This document shows, piece after piece, positions 1-7,078 of a DNA stretch of 64,000 bases (position 1 is its first letter; each line of letters opens with the position of its first letter). The DNA is taken from contig PMSU01000205.1 of the NCBI GenBank assembly GCA_003168255.1, positions 1 to 64,000 of the forward strand. The letters run 5' to 3'. A program made the position numbers and the translations under genes. Source of the stretch: Actinomycetota bacterium (GTDB lineage Bacteria > Actinomycetota > Actinomycetes > Streptosporangiales > Streptosporangiaceae). Below the pieces are notes generated by a model that saw only the letters and a list, made by a program, of their open reading frames with translations, had not been told where the DNA came from and made no database searches.

Positions 1-132
1 GTGGGCGCGGCGCACCACGGGACAAGCGGCGTGGGCTCTGCGCGGCACGGGACAAGCGGCGTGGGCTCCGCGCGGCACGGGACAAGCGGCGTGAGCTCCG
101 CGCGGCACGGGACAAGCGGCGTGGGCTCCGCG
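1..132 (+). repeat. Coding 30-bp tandem repeat, four copies plus a partial
   Basis: Units start at 1, 31, 61 and 91, with a fifth partial unit at 121. Each unit begins GTGGGCTCCGCGCGG and contains GGGACAAGCGGC, with one to a few mismatches between copies. The unit is a multiple of three and encodes a 10-residue repeat (consensus GVGSARHGTS) in the frame of the AIR-synthase-related protein. The array may continue upstream of the window. Confidence 0.9.
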
Positions 133-1185
133 CTGGTGCGGGCCGCTTGCGCGCGGGCGGAGATGGAGGGGGCGCTGCGGTTCGACGCCACGGTCCAGGC
201 CCGCAACGAGCCGTTGTTCACGCGTCTCGGCTGGCATGCGGTGCGGCCGGTAACCGTGGCGGGTGCGCCGCATGTGCTGATGCGGTGGCCGATCGGGCGG
301 ATCGCGGCGCTGGCCGCCGCGACCAAGAGCGCGCTCGGGCCGCTGCTGGCCGGCCTGCCGGCGCCGCCGGCCGGGTTCGGCGGGGATGACGGTGCGCCGG
401 TGCCCGGCAGCGACCTGGTGGCGGCCTGCGACGCGATCCTGCCCTCGATGGTGGAGCGCGACCCGGCCTGGGCCGGGTGGTGCGGCGTGCTGGCGAACCT
501 GAACGACCTGGCCGCCATGGGCGCCGAGCCGGTCGGCCTGCTGGACGCCGTCGCGGCGCGAGATGCCGCGCGGGCCGCCCAGGTGCTGGGCGGGCTGCGG
601 GACGCGTGCCTGGCGTACGACGTTCCGGTGCTCGGCGGGCATACTCAGCTAGGCGTCGCCGCCGCGCTGTCGGTGACCGCGCTCGGCCGGGCTGCGTCGC
701 CGGTTCCCGGCGGCGGCGGCCGGCCGGGGCACCGGATCCGGCTGACCGCCGACACCGGCGGCGGCTGGCGGCCCGGGTATCACGGACGGCAGTGGGACTC
801 CACTACTCATCGCCGCACCGCTGAGCTCCGGGCCATGCTCGGCTCGGTGGCGGCCGCCGCGCCCGCGGCGGCGAAGGACGTGTCGATGGCCGGCATCGCC
901 GGGACGCTGGGGATGCTGGCCGAGGCCAGTGGCTGCGCCGCCGTACTCGAGGTGGCGAAGGTGCCCAGGCCCGTCGGCGCGGCGGTCGGTGACTGGCTGA
1001 CGTGCTTTCCTGGGTTTGGGATGCTGACGGCCGGCCGGGCCGGCGCGGCGGCGCTGCCGGCTGGGCCTGCGGTCGGGGCGGAGTGCGGTGAGCTTACCGC
1101 CGGCAGCGGGGTCGCGCTGCGCTGGCCGGACGGGGAAGAGACCATCGTGATCGGCGGGCCGGTGACCGGCCTCGGAGCGGCATGA
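1..1185 (+). CDS. MSMEG_0567/Sll0787-type GNAT + AIR-synthase-related protein (5' end may lie outside window)
   Basis: The reading frame is open from the first base, so the true start probably lies upstream. After a repetitive N-terminus, residues about 45-100 look like the end of a GNAT acetyltransferase domain, with a LFTRLGW motif. From about residue 125 it resembles a PurM/AIR-synthase-like ATP-binding domain; the stretch GGWRPGYHGRQWDSTTHR (about 256-273) is characteristic of the MSMEG_0567/Sll0787 family. This family is a conserved member of the Nit1C/Nit6803 nitrilase cluster, implicated in nitrile or cyanide nitrogen use; the reaction of this protein is unknown. Its stop overlaps the next start by 4 bp (ATGA), so it is translationally coupled to the hydrolases that follow. 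Odd: four in-frame 30-bp repeats sit where the GNAT fold should be. Family call is confident, biochemical role is not. Confidence 0.75.
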   Translation: MGAAHHGTSGVGSARHGTSGVGSARHGTSGVSSARHGTSGVGSALVRAACARAEMEGALRFDATVQARNEPLFTRLGWHAVRPVTVAGAPHVLMRWPIGRIAALAAATKSALGPLLAGLPAPPAGFGGDDGAPVPGSDLVAACDAILPSMVERDPAWAGWCGVLANLNDLAAMGAEPVGLLDAVAARDAARAAQVLGGLRDACLAYDVPVLGGHTQLGVAAALSVTALGRAASPVPGGGGRPGHRIRLTADTGGGWRPGYHGRQWDSTTHRRTAELRAMLGSVAAAAPAAAKDVSMAGIAGTLGMLAEASGCAAVLEVAKVPRPVGAAVGDWLTCFPGFGMLTAGRAGAAALPAGPAVGAECGELTAGSGVALRWPDGEETIVIGGPVTGLGAA

Positions 1186-2060: not shown

Positions 2061-2897
2061 ATGGCTGTTGTCCGGATCGCGGCGGCCGCTGCGCACTTTG
2101 GCCGTGACCTGGAGTTCGACCTTGCCCGGATCGGGAAGCTGATCGAGGACGCGCGCCGGTCCGGGGCTGGGCTGCTGGTGCTGCCCGACGCGGCTTTCGG
2201 CGGCTACCTGACTGACTTGCGGCACCCTGATCCCGAGGCGCTGCCGCCCGCGCTCGCGGCTGATGACCCGATGCTCAAGCGGGTGGCCGTTCTGGCGGCG
2301 GACATGGTGGTGTGCGTGGGCTTCTGCGAAGCTGACGGCGCCGCGCGGTACAACGCGGCGGCGTGCCTGAGCGGGGACGGGATTCTCGGCGGGCACCGTA
2401 AGGTGCATCTGCCGGCTGGGGAGACGGCGGCGTACGCGGCGGGGGACGGGTTCGCCGCCTTCGACACGCCGGTCGGGCGGATCGGCATGCTGATCGATTA
2501 CGACAAGACCTTTCCCGAGTCGGCCCGGAGCCTGGCGCTGGACGGGGCGCAGATCATCGCGTGCCTGTCGGCGTGGCCGGCCAGCATTACCGACCGGGCG
2601 GCGCGGGTCACCCAGGACCGCCAAGCGCGGCTGTTCGACCTGTACGATTGCGCCCGCGCGGCCGAGAACCAGGTCGTGCTCGCCTCGTCCAATCAGACCG
2701 GGGCCATCGGCGGGATGCGGTTTCTCGGACAGGCCAAAGTGGTCGGTCCTGGGGGGAACATCCTGGCTCGTACCTGGTCGAAGGCCGGGCTCGCTGTTGC
2801 CGAGCTGGACGTGGCCGCGGAGATCGAGCGGGCGCGGCGGGTGCTGCGGCATCTGAGCGAGCGTCGGCCTGAGACCTATCGCAGCGCGGAGGCTTGA
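2061..2897 (+). CDS. Carbon-nitrogen hydrolase paralogue lacking catalytic Cys and Glu (likely pseudoenzyme)
   Basis: A 278-residue paralogue of the gene just upstream, aligning over its whole length (shared IGM.I.YDK.FPESAR and the LDGA.II segment). I chose ATG 2061 because GGAGG at 2050-2054 lies 6 nt before it; in-frame GTG 2055 and ATG 2058 are alternatives. The catalytic Cys is replaced by Asp (GMLIDYDK, D146, codon GAT at 2496-2498) and the catalytic Glu by Asp (LPDAAFGG, D43), while Lys is kept (K114 in GHRKVHLP). Without the Cys nucleophile, nitrilase chemistry is not expected. The frame is otherwise intact with ordinary codon use, so it appears maintained, perhaps as a regulatory or structural partner of the active copy. 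The stop overlaps the next start (TGATG). Confidence 0.85.
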   Translation: MAVVRIAAAAAHFGRDLEFDLARIGKLIEDARRSGAGLLVLPDAAFGGYLTDLRHPDPEALPPALAADDPMLKRVAVLAADMVVCVGFCEADGAARYNAAACLSGDGILGGHRKVHLPAGETAAYAAGDGFAAFDTPVGRIGMLIDYDKTFPESARSLALDGAQIIACLSAWPASITDRAARVTQDRQARLFDLYDCARAAENQVVLASSNQTGAIGGMRFLGQAKVVGPGGNILARTWSKAGLAVAELDVAAEIERARRVLRHLSERRPETYRSAEA

Positions 2898-4036
2898 TGG
2901 CCGGGCGGCCGCTGGCCATTGCCCTGCTGACGTATTCCACCAGGCCGCGCGGCGGGGTGGTGCATACGCTCGCGCTGGCCGAGGCGCTGGCGGCGGGCGG
3001 GCAGGATGTGACTGTCTGGACTCTCGGGCGGGGCGGCGATAGCGGGTTCTTCCGGCCGGTGGATGAGGCCGTGCGGTTGCGTGTCGTACCTTTCCCTGAT
3101 GCTGAGGGCGAGGGCGTCGGGGAGCGGGTGCTGCGGTCCATCGCCTTGCTGCGCGCGGCGTTCGACCCGGCGGGCTACGACGTCGTGCATGCGCAGGACT
3201 GCATCAGCGCCAACGCGGCCGGCCGCTGCCTGCGGACCGTTCACCACATCGACCACTTCACCACCGCCGAGCTGGTTCGCTGCCATGAGCGGGCTATTCG
3301 CAGGCCAATGGGCCACGTGTGCGTGTCCGCGGCAGTGGCGGCTGAACTGCGGGACGGCTGGGGAATCGGGGCCGAGGTGATCCCCAACGGGGTGGACGCC
3401 GGCCGGTTCGCCGCGGCGGCTGGCCCGGCTGGCCAGGCTGCGGCGGCGCGTGAACGGTGGCGGGACAAGTTCGGGAGGTTCGTGCTGTCTGTCGGCGGGA
3501 TCGAGCCGCGCAAGGGCTCCGTCGAGCTGCTGGAGGCCTTCGCGCTACTGCGGGCCGATGACCCGGAGGCGGCGCTGGTGGTGGCTGGCGGCGAGACGCT
3601 GTTCGACTACCGGCCTTATCGGGCGCAGTGGGAGGCCCGCGCGGCAGAGCTTGGCCTGGAACCGGTGGTCCTCGGGCCGGTCAATCACGACGAGCTGCCG
3701 TCGCTGGTCGCCGCGGCGGACGTGTTCGCGTTTCCGTCTACTCGCGAGGGGTTCGGGCTGGCTGCCATGGAGGCGCTGGCGGCCGGCGTCCCGGTGGTCG
3801 CCAGTGACCTGCCGGTGCTGCGGGAGGTGTTTGGCGACGCGGTTCGGTTCGCTGACGGGGCTACTAGCTTCGCTGACGGGCTGCGGGATGCCCTAGGCCG
3901 GCCCGATCCGCAGCGGCGGGCCGCCGGGCAGGCACTTGCCGCCCGGTACACCTGGCAGGCGGCTGCCCAGCGCCATCTCGCCCTCTACCGCAAGGTTGTG
4001 TACGACGAGACCCTCAGCGGTGCGTCGAGGGACTGA
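2897..4036 (+). CDS. MSMEG_0565-type family 4 glycosyltransferase
   Basis: A GT-B fold glycosyltransferase of about 379 residues. The N-terminus (IALLTYSTRPRGGVVHTLAL) closely matches the MSMEG_0565 family, and the C-terminal half has the GT4 nucleotide-sugar site (SVGGIEPRKG, then FAFPSTREGFGLAAMEALAAG, in which the E-x7-E motif lies). ATG 2897 overlaps the preceding TGA by one base (TGATG), which decides the start. It is the last gene of the nitrilase-associated operon; mycobacteria and other bacteria keep the same association. The acceptor is unknown. Only 23 bp separates its stop from the convergent phosphatase gene. Confidence 0.85.
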   Translation: MAGRPLAIALLTYSTRPRGGVVHTLALAEALAAGGQDVTVWTLGRGGDSGFFRPVDEAVRLRVVPFPDAEGEGVGERVLRSIALLRAAFDPAGYDVVHAQDCISANAAGRCLRTVHHIDHFTTAELVRCHERAIRRPMGHVCVSAAVAAELRDGWGIGAEVIPNGVDAGRFAAAAGPAGQAAAARERWRDKFGRFVLSVGGIEPRKGSVELLEAFALLRADDPEAALVVAGGETLFDYRPYRAQWEARAAELGLEPVVLGPVNHDELPSLVAAADVFAFPSTREGFGLAAMEALAAGVPVVASDLPVLREVFGDAVRFADGATSFADGLRDALGRPDPQRRAAGQALAARYTWQAAAQRHLALYRKVVYDETLSGASRD

Positions 4037-4059: not shown

Positions 4060-5460
4060 TCAGCCGTGCTGCTCGTTTCCTGGATCCGGGTGGCCGTTCG
4101 TCTCGTGCCGGGGGACTTTCAGCACCAGCGTGACGGTGTCGTCGCTGCTGTCTCCGCCGGTGAAGGCCAGCGCGGCTTGCTGGATGGAGTCGGCGATCCG
4201 CGCCGCGGGCACATCGCCCAGGCCAGCGATGAGGTCGCGGAGTCGGTCGTCGCCGTAGAGATCACGGTCGATGTGGCCCCGGGCCTCGGTGACGCCATCG
4301 GAGAACAGGACCAGGCTGTCGCCCGCTCGCAGCTGCGTGCGTGAGTCATGAAGGTCGGGATCGGGGACTATCCCGAGCAGGGTCCCCGGCCGGCCGGATG
4401 CCTGCACGCGCCCGTCCGCGCGGCGTACCAGCGCCAGGGGGTGACCCGCGGAGCTGATCTGCACTGAGGCCCCGGCGACAGTGGGCCGCACGGTGGCATA
4501 GATCGCGGTCAGGAACCGCGGGTCATCGGTAATCCACTCCAGCAGCGCCTGGTTCAAGGCAGCCAAGATCAGCCGCGGCCTCGTCTCCCGGTGTGCCTCC
4601 GCCCGGAGGGTATAGCGGGCTAGCGCGGTGCTCTTGGCAGCCGGGACCCCCTTGCCGCACACGTCGCCGACCACCATCCCCCAGCTCCCCCGGACCGACG
4701 GGAACACGTCGTAGAAGTCCCCGAGAACCTCGGCGCCGATACCCCCGGCCACATACCGCGCCGCCACTTGCAGGCCCGGGATGACCGGCAGTCGCGACGG
4801 CAGCAGGCTCTCCTGAAGGGTCTGCGCCAGAGCCGCGCGCTCCGCGCCGTGCTGCACGGCGACCTGTAGCGCGGCTTCACCCGAGGCGACGTAGGCCAAG
4901 GTCTCCAGAACCTCGACGTCGCCCGTACTCCACCGGCGCGGCCGGTGATCGGCCACGCACAGCGCGCCCACTACGCGGCCGTCCGGGCCGCGCACCGGGA
5001 ACCCGGCCCAAGCGATGACGCCCGCCGGCCCTGACGGGCAACTGGCGATGGTGCGCGAGTCCAGCCGGACGTCATCGATGACCAGCTTGTCCGCGGAGTC
5101 GATCACGTGCTGGCACAACGACTGCTCGGCCGGGCTCTGCCGATCGGCCATGCCCAGGGGGCCGGGACGGATCCGCCAGGAGAAAGGGCGCTCACCGACC
5201 ATCATCACGGACGCCAGCGGCGTGCCCATGACCATCGCGGCCAGCCGCGCAACACGGTCGAAAGGCTCCTCCGCGCGGGTGCCCGGCATGCCAGCCTGAC
5301 ATGCCGCAGCGGGCCCAGGCACTGCGGGCACGTCCGGCATGTCCAGGGGGTCCGGGGGGTCCGAGGGGTCCGGGGGGTCCGGCACGTTCGCCGGGACGAG
5401 CCCGGTCACCGTACTGGCGCTGGCGGGAACTGGAACGGAGGCATTACCGAGGACTCTCAT
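4060..5460 (-). CDS. GAF-domain SpoIIE/RsbU-type PP2C phosphatase
   Basis: A predicted cytoplasmic serine phosphatase of 466 residues. After a Pro/Asp-rich low-complexity N-terminus (repeats of PDPP and PDP) comes a GAF sensor domain (about residues 60-215, with a CVADHRPRRWS-like strand), then a SpoIIE/PP2C domain from about 235 carrying GDFYDVF, GDVCGKG, FSDGVTEAR and SSDDTVTLV, which include the metal-binding Asp residues. Such proteins dephosphorylate anti-anti-sigma factors in partner-switching stress pathways; no partner kinase or STAS protein is nearby. I chose ATG 5460 because GGAAAG lies 7 nt upstream; an in-frame ATG at 5565 would add 35 residues. The low-complexity segment comes from a run of GGGGTCC-like repeats in the DNA. 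Confidence 0.8.
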   Translation of the reverse strand: MRVLGNASVPVPASASTVTGLVPANVPDPPDPSDPPDPLDMPDVPAVPGPAAACQAGMPGTRAEEPFDRVARLAAMVMGTPLASVMMVGERPFSWRIRPGPLGMADRQSPAEQSLCQHVIDSADKLVIDDVRLDSRTIASCPSGPAGVIAWAGFPVRGPDGRVVGALCVADHRPRRWSTGDVEVLETLAYVASGEAALQVAVQHGAERAALAQTLQESLLPSRLPVIPGLQVAARYVAGGIGAEVLGDFYDVFPSVRGSWGMVVGDVCGKGVPAAKSTALARYTLRAEAHRETRPRLILAALNQALLEWITDDPRFLTAIYATVRPTVAGASVQISSAGHPLALVRRADGRVQASGRPGTLLGIVPDPDLHDSRTQLRAGDSLVLFSDGVTEARGHIDRDLYGDDRLRDLIAGLGDVPAARIADSIQQAALAFTGGDSSDDTVTLVLKVPRHETNGHPDPGNEQHG

Positions 5461-5890
5461 ATCGCCGCTTTCCACCGGGGTTGTGACAGTGCATCCCGAA
5501 ATCCGGGTGAAGCGGGGTCCAGGCCTCAAGTTTTTTAATCTAACCACAGAACCTGTAGTCCACATCAGCCTTTGTCCGAATCCCTTGCCTGCCGTCCAAT
5601 TGGGCAGGTTGGGGTGTCCACTTTCCGCCTTTGCGTCGCAGCGCCCTCGGTCATACTCGCGCCGATACAGGCGACCATTACTGTCGACTCCGCAGTCGGG
5701 GTGAAGTTTTCGCTACCCCGTTCAGGTTTGGGTGGAGGGACAAAACAGGTGTGATACGGTTCCGTCCGCTCGGACACTATTAAGCAATCTTTGTGCGGTG
5801 TTGCGTAATATGCCGGACGTACGCCGGTCGCAGCATGGGAGCCGGTTTTGGCATTATTTCTGTATTGTTTTGGCATCTTCCTGATGATGG
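5461..5890. other. Intergenic region upstream of the phosphatase; no gene recognised
   Basis: About 430 bp, slightly lower in GC than its surroundings. It holds the presumed leader of the leftward phosphatase gene and the 3' flank of the permease gene. An 8-bp direct repeat, GCCAAAAC on the minus strand, occurs twice within 5845-5875 about 22 bp apart, in an AT-rich patch. I recognised no protein, tRNA or terminator here. Confidence 0.4.
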
Positions 5891-7078
5891 CTAGGACGGC
5901 GGGCCGACGCGGGCGTGATCGTGATGCTCGCCGCCGGTTTCGGGTGCGCCGCCCATCATGCGGAGCATCGGGATGCCGCCGCTGCGGACGAACCGACAGC
6001 ACAGTGCGGCGGCGAGGAGCAGGAAGATGATGTTGAGCACGGTGGTGTAGTTCCACTGAATGGATGCCTCGAACACCTTGGCGTGCCGGCCGGCCGGGAT
6101 GAGGCCGAGGCCGCCGAAGATCAGCTCGATCAGGTATCCGGCGGCGACCATGGTGGCGTACAAGGCGGCCAGGATGAACAGCATCATCTTGGTGCCGTAG
6201 TACTTCCGGTAAATCACCAGGATCGGCACGATGAGCAGGTCGGCGAAGATGAACGCCACGACGCCGCCGAAGCTGATCCCGCCGTTCCAGAGCACCCCGG
6301 CCAGCGGGACGTTCCCGATCGAGCAGACGAAGCTGAGCAGGCTGACGACTGGCCCGATCAGCGGCCCCCAGAGCTTCGACGCCAGCGGGTGCCCGGACAG
6401 GAACAGGTGGCCCCAGAAGCTGTTCGGCACCCAGGCGGCGACCGCGCCGGCGATCAGCAGGCCGATCACGATGTCGCGGATGACGGCCGCCCACTCCATC
6501 ACGAAGATGTGCGACACCGAGGTAAACGCCTGCCGCGACCTGAGCCGCTGCCACAGGCTCCCCTCGGCCGCGATGGTCATGTCCATCGCGGCGTGCCCCT
6601 CCATCGATCCGGCCAGGCCCCTTTCCGCCTGGGTCCTGGCGGCGTCGAGCAGTCGCGGGCGCAGGAAGAGGCGAAACAGCAGCGCCATCAGGATGATCAT
6701 GATCGGGCCGCCGATGAACTCCGCCAGGGTGAACTGCCAGCCGATGAGCAAGGCCAGGATGATGCCGAGCTCGATGACCAGATTGGTGGAGGCGATCTCG
6801 AAGGCCATGGCGGCGGTGAAGCTTGCTCCCTTGCGGAACAGCGACCGCGCCAGTGCCACGGCAGCGTAGGAGCACGACGACGAGGCGGCGCCAAGGCCTG
6901 CCGCCAGCGCCAGCGTCCTTGGCCGGTCGTCGCCCAGCAGCCGGATGATCGTGGCGCGGCGCACCACAGCCTGCACCACAGCGGACAGGGCAAAGCCCAG
7001 GATCAGCGCCCAGAGGATCTCCCAGGTCATCGAGCCGGTGATGGCCAGGGCATGCCCCAGGGCGTGCAGCCACCTCAT
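5891..7078 (-). CDS. ArsP/YraQ-like permease (COG0701 family)
   Basis: A 395-residue polytopic membrane protein with roughly eight to ten hydrophobic segments and a hydrophilic central loop (about residues 140-185). Family-typical stretches are GAASSSCSYAAVALARSLF (about 63-81, holding a Cys), FEIASTNLVIELG and SIGNVPLAGVLWNGG. Members of COG0701 include the organoarsenical exporter ArsP and related permeases of unclear substrate. No arsenic regulator or other ars gene is adjacent, so a metal(loid) role is inference only. The C-terminus is His-rich (GGEHHDHARVG), which could bind a metal. The gene appears monocistronic; the start is ATG 7078. Confidence 0.75.
   Translation of the reverse strand: MRWLHALGHALAITGSMTWEILWALILGFALSAVVQAVVRRATIIRLLGDDRPRTLALAAGLGAASSSCSYAAVALARSLFRKGASFTAAMAFEIASTNLVIELGIILALLIGWQFTLAEFIGGPIMIILMALLFRLFLRPRLLDAARTQAERGLAGSMEGHAAMDMTIAAEGSLWQRLRSRQAFTSVSHIFVMEWAAVIRDIVIGLLIAGAVAAWVPNSFWGHLFLSGHPLASKLWGPLIGPVVSLLSFVCSIGNVPLAGVLWNGGISFGGVVAFIFADLLIVPILVIYRKYYGTKMMLFILAALYATMVAAGYLIELIFGGLGLIPAGRHAKVFEASIQWNYTTVLNIIFLLLAAALCCRFVRSGGIPMLRMMGGAPETGGEHHDHARVGPPS

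Follow-up and report, generated by a model that had tools for sequence, protein, structure and literature searches.

The Nit1C cluster is a widespread gene cluster for nitrogen starvation and cyanide assimilation. In its classical form, it carries the NitC/Nit6803 nitrilase (Podar 2005, PMC1199592). More specifically, the classical cluster of Methylorubrum pCMU01 holds a nitrilase of family TIGR04048 between its MSMEG_0572-type and radical SAM genes and is without a pair of small carbon-nitrogen (C-N) hydrolases. The actinobacterial form is represented in M. smegmatis by the GlnR-induced gpr cluster MSMEG_0565-0572 (PMC6039565). Under nitrogen starvation, MSMEG_0571 is upregulated 48-fold and MSMEG_0566 8.9-fold (PMC4222082); MSMEG_0566 is annotated as an 'aliphatic amidase' and is treated in these papers as a putative amidase (PMC4222082, PMC6039565).

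Another system that bears on the present locus comes from the Lnt branch of the nitrilase superfamily. A contributive role has been proposed for the mycobacterial second Lnt homologue BCG_2279c, in which Cys387 is changed to Ser, and in S. scabies efficient acylation by Lnt1 needs a second Lnt (PMC3850990). BCG_2279c is the nearest precedent for the Asp-type gene described here, as both are nitrilase-superfamily paralogues without the catalytic Cys. In contrast to our gene, it is a membrane enzyme of the Lnt branch with a Cys to Ser change, is not arranged in tandem (its functional copy lies elsewhere in the genome) and is located outside Nit1C.

In the window, the whole stretch of 64,000 nucleotides analysed here, two paralogous genes of the nitrilase superfamily lie side by side within a compact gene row. 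We refer to them as the Cys twin and the Asp twin, and the relevant features are as follows:

1-1185, + strand: C-terminal part of a GNAT-AIRS fusion gene (MSMEG_0567 type; TIGR04050 463 bits, TIGR04045 partial)
1182-2048, + strand: Cys twin, canonical nitrilase-superfamily (C-N hydrolase) paralogue (PF00795, E 5.7e-35)
2061-2897, + strand: Asp twin, Asp-type nitrilase-superfamily paralogue (PF00795, E 1.2e-32, 113.6 bits)
2187-2189, + strand: Asp43 of the Asp twin, codon GAC, at the general-base (Glu) position
2400-2402, + strand: Lys114 of the Asp twin, codon AAG, the catalytic Lys, kept
2421-2423, + strand: Glu121 of the Asp twin, codon GAG, the second Glu, kept
2496-2498, + strand: Asp146 of the Asp twin, codon GAT, in place of the nucleophilic Cys
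2897-4036, + strand: MSMEG_0565-family glycosyltransferase (TIGR04047 464.6 bits)
Contig C31, L119:1-363, - strand: N-terminal GNAT part of the GNAT-AIRS fusion gene

The twins share 60.6% identity over 274 amino acids. As the earlier note had described, they are tandem paralogues 12 bp apart. Both lie on the + strand and match PF00795; the Cys twin ends at 2048 and the ATG of the Asp twin is at 2061, with an alternative GTG start at 2055 and a GGAGG motif at 2050-2054. Reading of the codons confirmed both residue sets given there, Glu43-Lys112-Cys144 in the first gene and Asp43-Lys114-Asp146 in the second, as well as the intactness of the Asp twin, which is a full open reading frame from 2061 to 2897 despite the loss of Cys and Glu43. 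The second Glu (E119/E121), absent from that note, is retained, so that the active site of the Cys twin reads GAG Glu43, AAG Lys112, GAG Glu119 and TGC Cys144, while the Asp twin lacks the Glu-Lys-Cys triad and has Asp-Lys-(Glu)-Asp. Getting from the Cys codon TGC to an Asp codon (GAT or GAC) takes at least two base changes. Matches to the N-carbamoylputrescine amidase model TIGR03381 reached 104 and 106 bits, under its curated cut-off of 410 bits. Judged by sequence, the Asp twin is homologous to the nitrilase superfamily, but it is no standard enzyme of that superfamily.

The GNAT-AIRS stop and the Cys-twin start overlap (ATGA at 1182-1185), as do the stop of the Asp twin and the start of the glycosyltransferase gene (TGATG at 2895-2899, ATG at 2897), so the gene row looks like one operon. 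Its 5' part was found on another contig of the same genome: position 1 of the window is a contig end that falls within a 30-bp tandem repeat, and the end of contig C31 (3041 bp) overlaps the window start by 18 nt. C31 carries the N-terminal GNAT part, a radical SAM gene (TIGR04043), the MSMEG_0572 protein (TIGR04044) and an amidohydrolase (PF04909). Because the GNAT domain is split across the two contigs, each GNAT piece alone scores under the cut-off. Together, the window and C31 supply the Nit1C set TIGR04043, TIGR04044, GNAT TIGR04045, AIRS TIGR04050/04049 and TIGR04047; the Nit1C flavoprotein TIGR04046 (0569) is present in related loci. Since the twins are flanked by the GNAT-AIRS fusion and the MSMEG_0565-type glycosyltransferase, we assign them to the actinobacterial Nit1C cluster (M. 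smegmatis gpr, MSMEG_0565-0572). The repeat itself, GTGGGCTCCGCGCGGCACGGGACAAGCGGC, runs in frame for 4.4 copies (window 1-133) within the GNAT-encoding part of the fusion gene, and the assembly breaks there. The amidohydrolase (about 287 aa, without an NCBIfam name) is found on C31 (L119:2092-2952) and in most related loci; in actinobacterial Nit1C it regularly occupies the place between the flavoprotein and MSMEG_0572 genes, whereas the classical cluster is without it.

Genomes of family f6 have the same genes in the same order as the M. smegmatis gpr cluster, namely 0572, C-N hydrolase, 0569, radical SAM, GNAT-AIRS, C-N hydrolase and glycosyltransferase. Gene position alone predicts that MSMEG_0571 is of the Cys type and MSMEG_0566 of the Asp type.

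Compared with classical Nit1C, the paired clusters share the 0572, radical SAM, GNAT, AIRS and glycosyltransferase genes and the 0569 flavoprotein. In contrast, where the classical cluster has the TIGR04048 nitrilase that defines it elsewhere, the actinobacterial clusters have the small Cys/Asp nitrilase-fold pair. TIGR04048 (Nit6803/NitC) was over its cut-off in none of the 18 genomes tested, namely G091, a genome with a solitary Asp twin, and 17 that carry one or both of the twins in a Nit1C cluster or what remains of one; the best score in the source genome was 48.7 bits against a cut-off of 502.6. Among plasmid records, the radical SAM protein occurred in 513, mostly from Proteobacteria, and the Asp twin in four, all from Rhodococcus. 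The absence of NitC from paired clusters and this plasmid distribution indicate that the pair is a feature of actinobacterial Nit1C, in which, we infer, the Cys twin functionally replaces NitC. On the mobilizable Rhodococcus qingshengii plasmid pLP1 (L212), the whole paired Nit1C cluster is flanked by two copies of one IS3 transposase gene.

Paired nitrilase-type genes, one with its Cys replaced by Asp, are carried by many soil actinobacteria. A scan of species genomes gave 80 loci at 75-85% identity, and more came from relatives and the class, which rules out that the Asp is confined to the source genome. In this actinobacterial sample, weighted towards close relatives, the nucleophile position was Asp in 116 of 116 distinct Asp-twin homologues, and Lys and the second Glu were both kept in all of them, whereas the residue at the general-base position varies, being Asp in 107, Gly in 7, His in 1 and Gln in 1. 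The Asp/Asp pair, whose recurrence the earlier note had suggested checking, is thus invariant at the nucleophile and frequent, at 107 of 116, at the base. All 120 complete homologues of the Cys twin have E-K-E-C. This complete split at the nucleophile excludes chance or sequencing error. Two seeming exceptions in the Cys set, L178_act (DKED) and L040_act (odd), were artefacts of a read-through open reading frame and a frameshifted record. The more distant G783 of the same phylum has Asp at the nucleophile too (D-K-D-D by eye).

The Asp clade has 97 near-invariant columns against 71 in the Cys clade and a mean entropy of 0.79 against 0.99, and eight differences are fixed between the clades (C144D, A148T, W186Q, R189L, L199A, V220L, M260L and D265E). 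In a tree of 83 sequences, built by a quick method in which inner forks under 90 are soft, the Asp twins form a single clade (SH-aLRT 97) that is sister to the Cys twins (87), and related single-copy E-K-E-C proteins, which serve as the root, fall outside both. A monophyletic Asp clade sister to the Cys clade points to a single ancient duplication and to Asp having been fixed just once. Other classes of the phylum have a third E-K-E-C subfamily (L204, L205, L207 and L208), solitary and located outside Nit1C, with Gln, as in the Asp twin, at the site where the Cys twin has W.

The Asp twin is under strong purifying selection, stronger than that on the Cys twin, and evolves more slowly. Over 4026 genome pairs with usable dS, the Asp twin had a median dN/dS of 0.236 against 0.273 in the Cys twin, both far from 1, although these values come from counting methods that are rough at dS near 1 and from pairs that are not independent. 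In 93% of all genome pairs, dN was lower in the Asp twin. The earlier note had considered that the Asp residues might occur in this genome alone with dN/dS near 1, and neither was found. As the Cys has long been fixed as Asp and the gene is more strictly conserved than the Cys twin, we regard it as a selected protein rather than a decaying gene: it has lost catalytic residues while otherwise being conserved under selection, as pseudoenzymes have.

The constant neighbour of the Asp twin is the glycosyltransferase rather than the Cys twin. The glycosyltransferase gene lies directly 3' of the Asp twin in 96 of 98 loci, and directly 5' are the Cys twin (79 of 98), the 0569 flavoprotein (11) or GNAT-AIRS (4). 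The twins are separated, by 0569 or several genes, in about 18 of the 98. Among 395 genomes of the class, 50 had a match: 33 carried both twins, 16 had just the Cys twin (assigned from best match and layout, and for a subset from residues) and one, G091, had just the Asp twin. There, an intact Asp twin (D-K-E-D) sits among unrelated genes, and neither a Cys twin (the genome has one match) nor the cluster radical SAM gene was found. G091 is one genome, and its Asp twin gene could be in the course of being lost; no further solitary Asp twins were found in five genomes of its family and order. A second genome with an Asp gene and no Cys twin, G031, was set aside because the amidohydrolase and glycosyltransferase genes are truncated in its cluster remnant. 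In family f19 (L144, L145, L148-L151, L164-L171), the Cys twin occurs alone, with neither 0569 nor the Asp twin present, and the stretch of about 1.7-2.2 kb from the Cys twin to the glycosyltransferase gene holds in L145 the gene of an unrelated 643-aa FAD oxidoreductase.

After correction for the cluster-wide signal, the evolutionary rates of the twins co-varied with a partial r of 0.04, among the lowest of 28 gene pairs; for comparison, the Cys twin reached 0.37 with radical SAM, and the Asp twin 0.25 with GNAT-AIRS. Mirror-tree correlation is a weak test that is uncalibrated for heteromers; the value speaks, weakly, against the twins forming a tight and obligate pair. Among Cys twins, some sites are fixed where an Asp twin is present and not where it is absent, but these are confounded with phylogeny.

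AlphaFold2 predicted a complete nitrilase fold for both the Asp twin (pLDDT 94.8, pTM 0.93) and the Cys twin (pLDDT 93.3), so that the Asp twin belongs to PF00795 by sequence and by predicted fold. In the model, Asp146 lies at the nucleophile elbow, where strand 139-145 gives way to helix 146-150. The closest solved structures to both twins are 6ypa, 3ivz, 1j31 and 5h8k, with 6ypa matching the Asp twin in Foldseek at E 1.6e-23 and TM 0.82-0.86. These nearest structures come from the branch of N-carbamoylputrescine amidase and the Pyrococcus amidase PH0642, yet identity is just 25-29%, and those enzymes have Cys where the Asp twin has Asp at both nucleophile and base.

We propose, as a reading about evenly poised between right and wrong, that the Asp twin is a protein in its own right which binds, and possibly converts by acid-base chemistry, a Nit1C intermediate near the glycosyltransferase step. 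One old duplication would have given rise to a Cys/Asp pair that takes the place of NitC in the actinobacterial clusters. Because Cys is absent, the Asp twin should be unable to form the covalent intermediate of the superfamily, the thioester or thioimidate of nitrilases, and classical hydrolysis is unlikely because the general-base position is free to vary. Its pocket may instead have been repurposed to hold a Nit1C intermediate, which might be turned over by non-covalent acid-base chemistry of Lys, Glu and Asp, making the protein more than a mere helper subunit of the Cys twin. Since these three residues never change, the pocket should bind something, which favours a function of its own; in regulators that need the fold only, one would expect every position of the site to drift. 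The near-constant glycosyltransferase linkage, the occurrence in G091 without a Cys twin, the low rate correlation and the intact predicted fold lead to the same reading. Against it, most loci have the twins next to each other, and most of the matching genomes carry both. A stronger version, in which a Lys-Glu-Asp apparatus replaces Glu-Lys-Cys and catalyses a Nit1C step without a covalent thio-intermediate, seems rather doubtful. The description 'catalytically dead' in the earlier note is borne out as to the loss of Cys and Glu43; deadness itself would be a reading of the sequence, and as the K-E-D pocket is strictly kept, the protein is just as likely to bind a ligand or carry out another reaction as to have no chemistry at all.

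As the main alternative, the Asp twin could be a pseudoenzyme partner that joins the Cys twin in hetero-oligomers, through the dimer surfaces typical of nitrilases, and has a stabilising or regulatory effect on it, which we consider possible, if on the unlikely side. Nitrilase-superfamily proteins are oligomeric as a rule, and the 60% identity of the twins, their adjacency and their co-occurrence all fit such a complex, as do the Lnt precedents of S. scabies and BCG_2279c (PMC3850990). However, 16 of the 50 matching genomes have a Cys twin with no Asp twin and one has the reverse, the twins lie apart in a sizeable minority of loci with hardly any correlation of their rates, and a purely structural role needs no specific fixation of Asp, Lys and Glu in the pocket. 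Of the partner idea put forward in the earlier note, the conserved loss of the nucleophile therefore stands, while completion or regulation of the Cys twin is somewhat disfavoured by the loci with non-adjacent twins, the solitary twins of either type and the rate correlation.

It is also conceivable, and quite improbable, that Asp146 is itself the catalytic nucleophile or an essential acid/base, in an oxygen-based mechanism new to the nitrilase fold. Such a role would suit the fixed Asp146, Lys114 and Glu121 in an otherwise kept family core, the predicted location at the nucleophile elbow and the two or more base changes required to reach Asp, but the general-base position is unconserved (G, H and Q occur) and we know of no nitrilase-superfamily member that works via an Asp nucleophile. 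Finally, a recent pseudogene or relaxed copy in the source genome, for which nothing but the loss of Cys and Glu speaks, has practically no likelihood and is refuted by the same residues fixed across Actinomycetes, the nucleophile Asp also in the distant G783, and a dN/dS of about 0.24.

Part of the missing Nit1C chemistry or regulation may run through the Asp twin, as it is the more conserved member of the pair. It offers a clean case of active-site replacement within the nitrilase superfamily, and genes labelled 'carbon-nitrogen hydrolase' or 'aliphatic amidase' on such evidence are perhaps misannotated. Our literature search for a fixed Asp, a Cys/Asp pair, pseudoenzymes or a missing Cys in the nitrilase superfamily found no description, which is no proof of absence; the genes of the pair are already known and annotated, and the fixed Asp and the pairing are undescribed in the literature searched. 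Beyond the glycosyltransferase gene, the window carries a SpoIIE-GAF phosphatase gene (4060-5565, - strand) near a predicted ArsP/SO_0444-type permease (5891-7078, - strand; PF03773).
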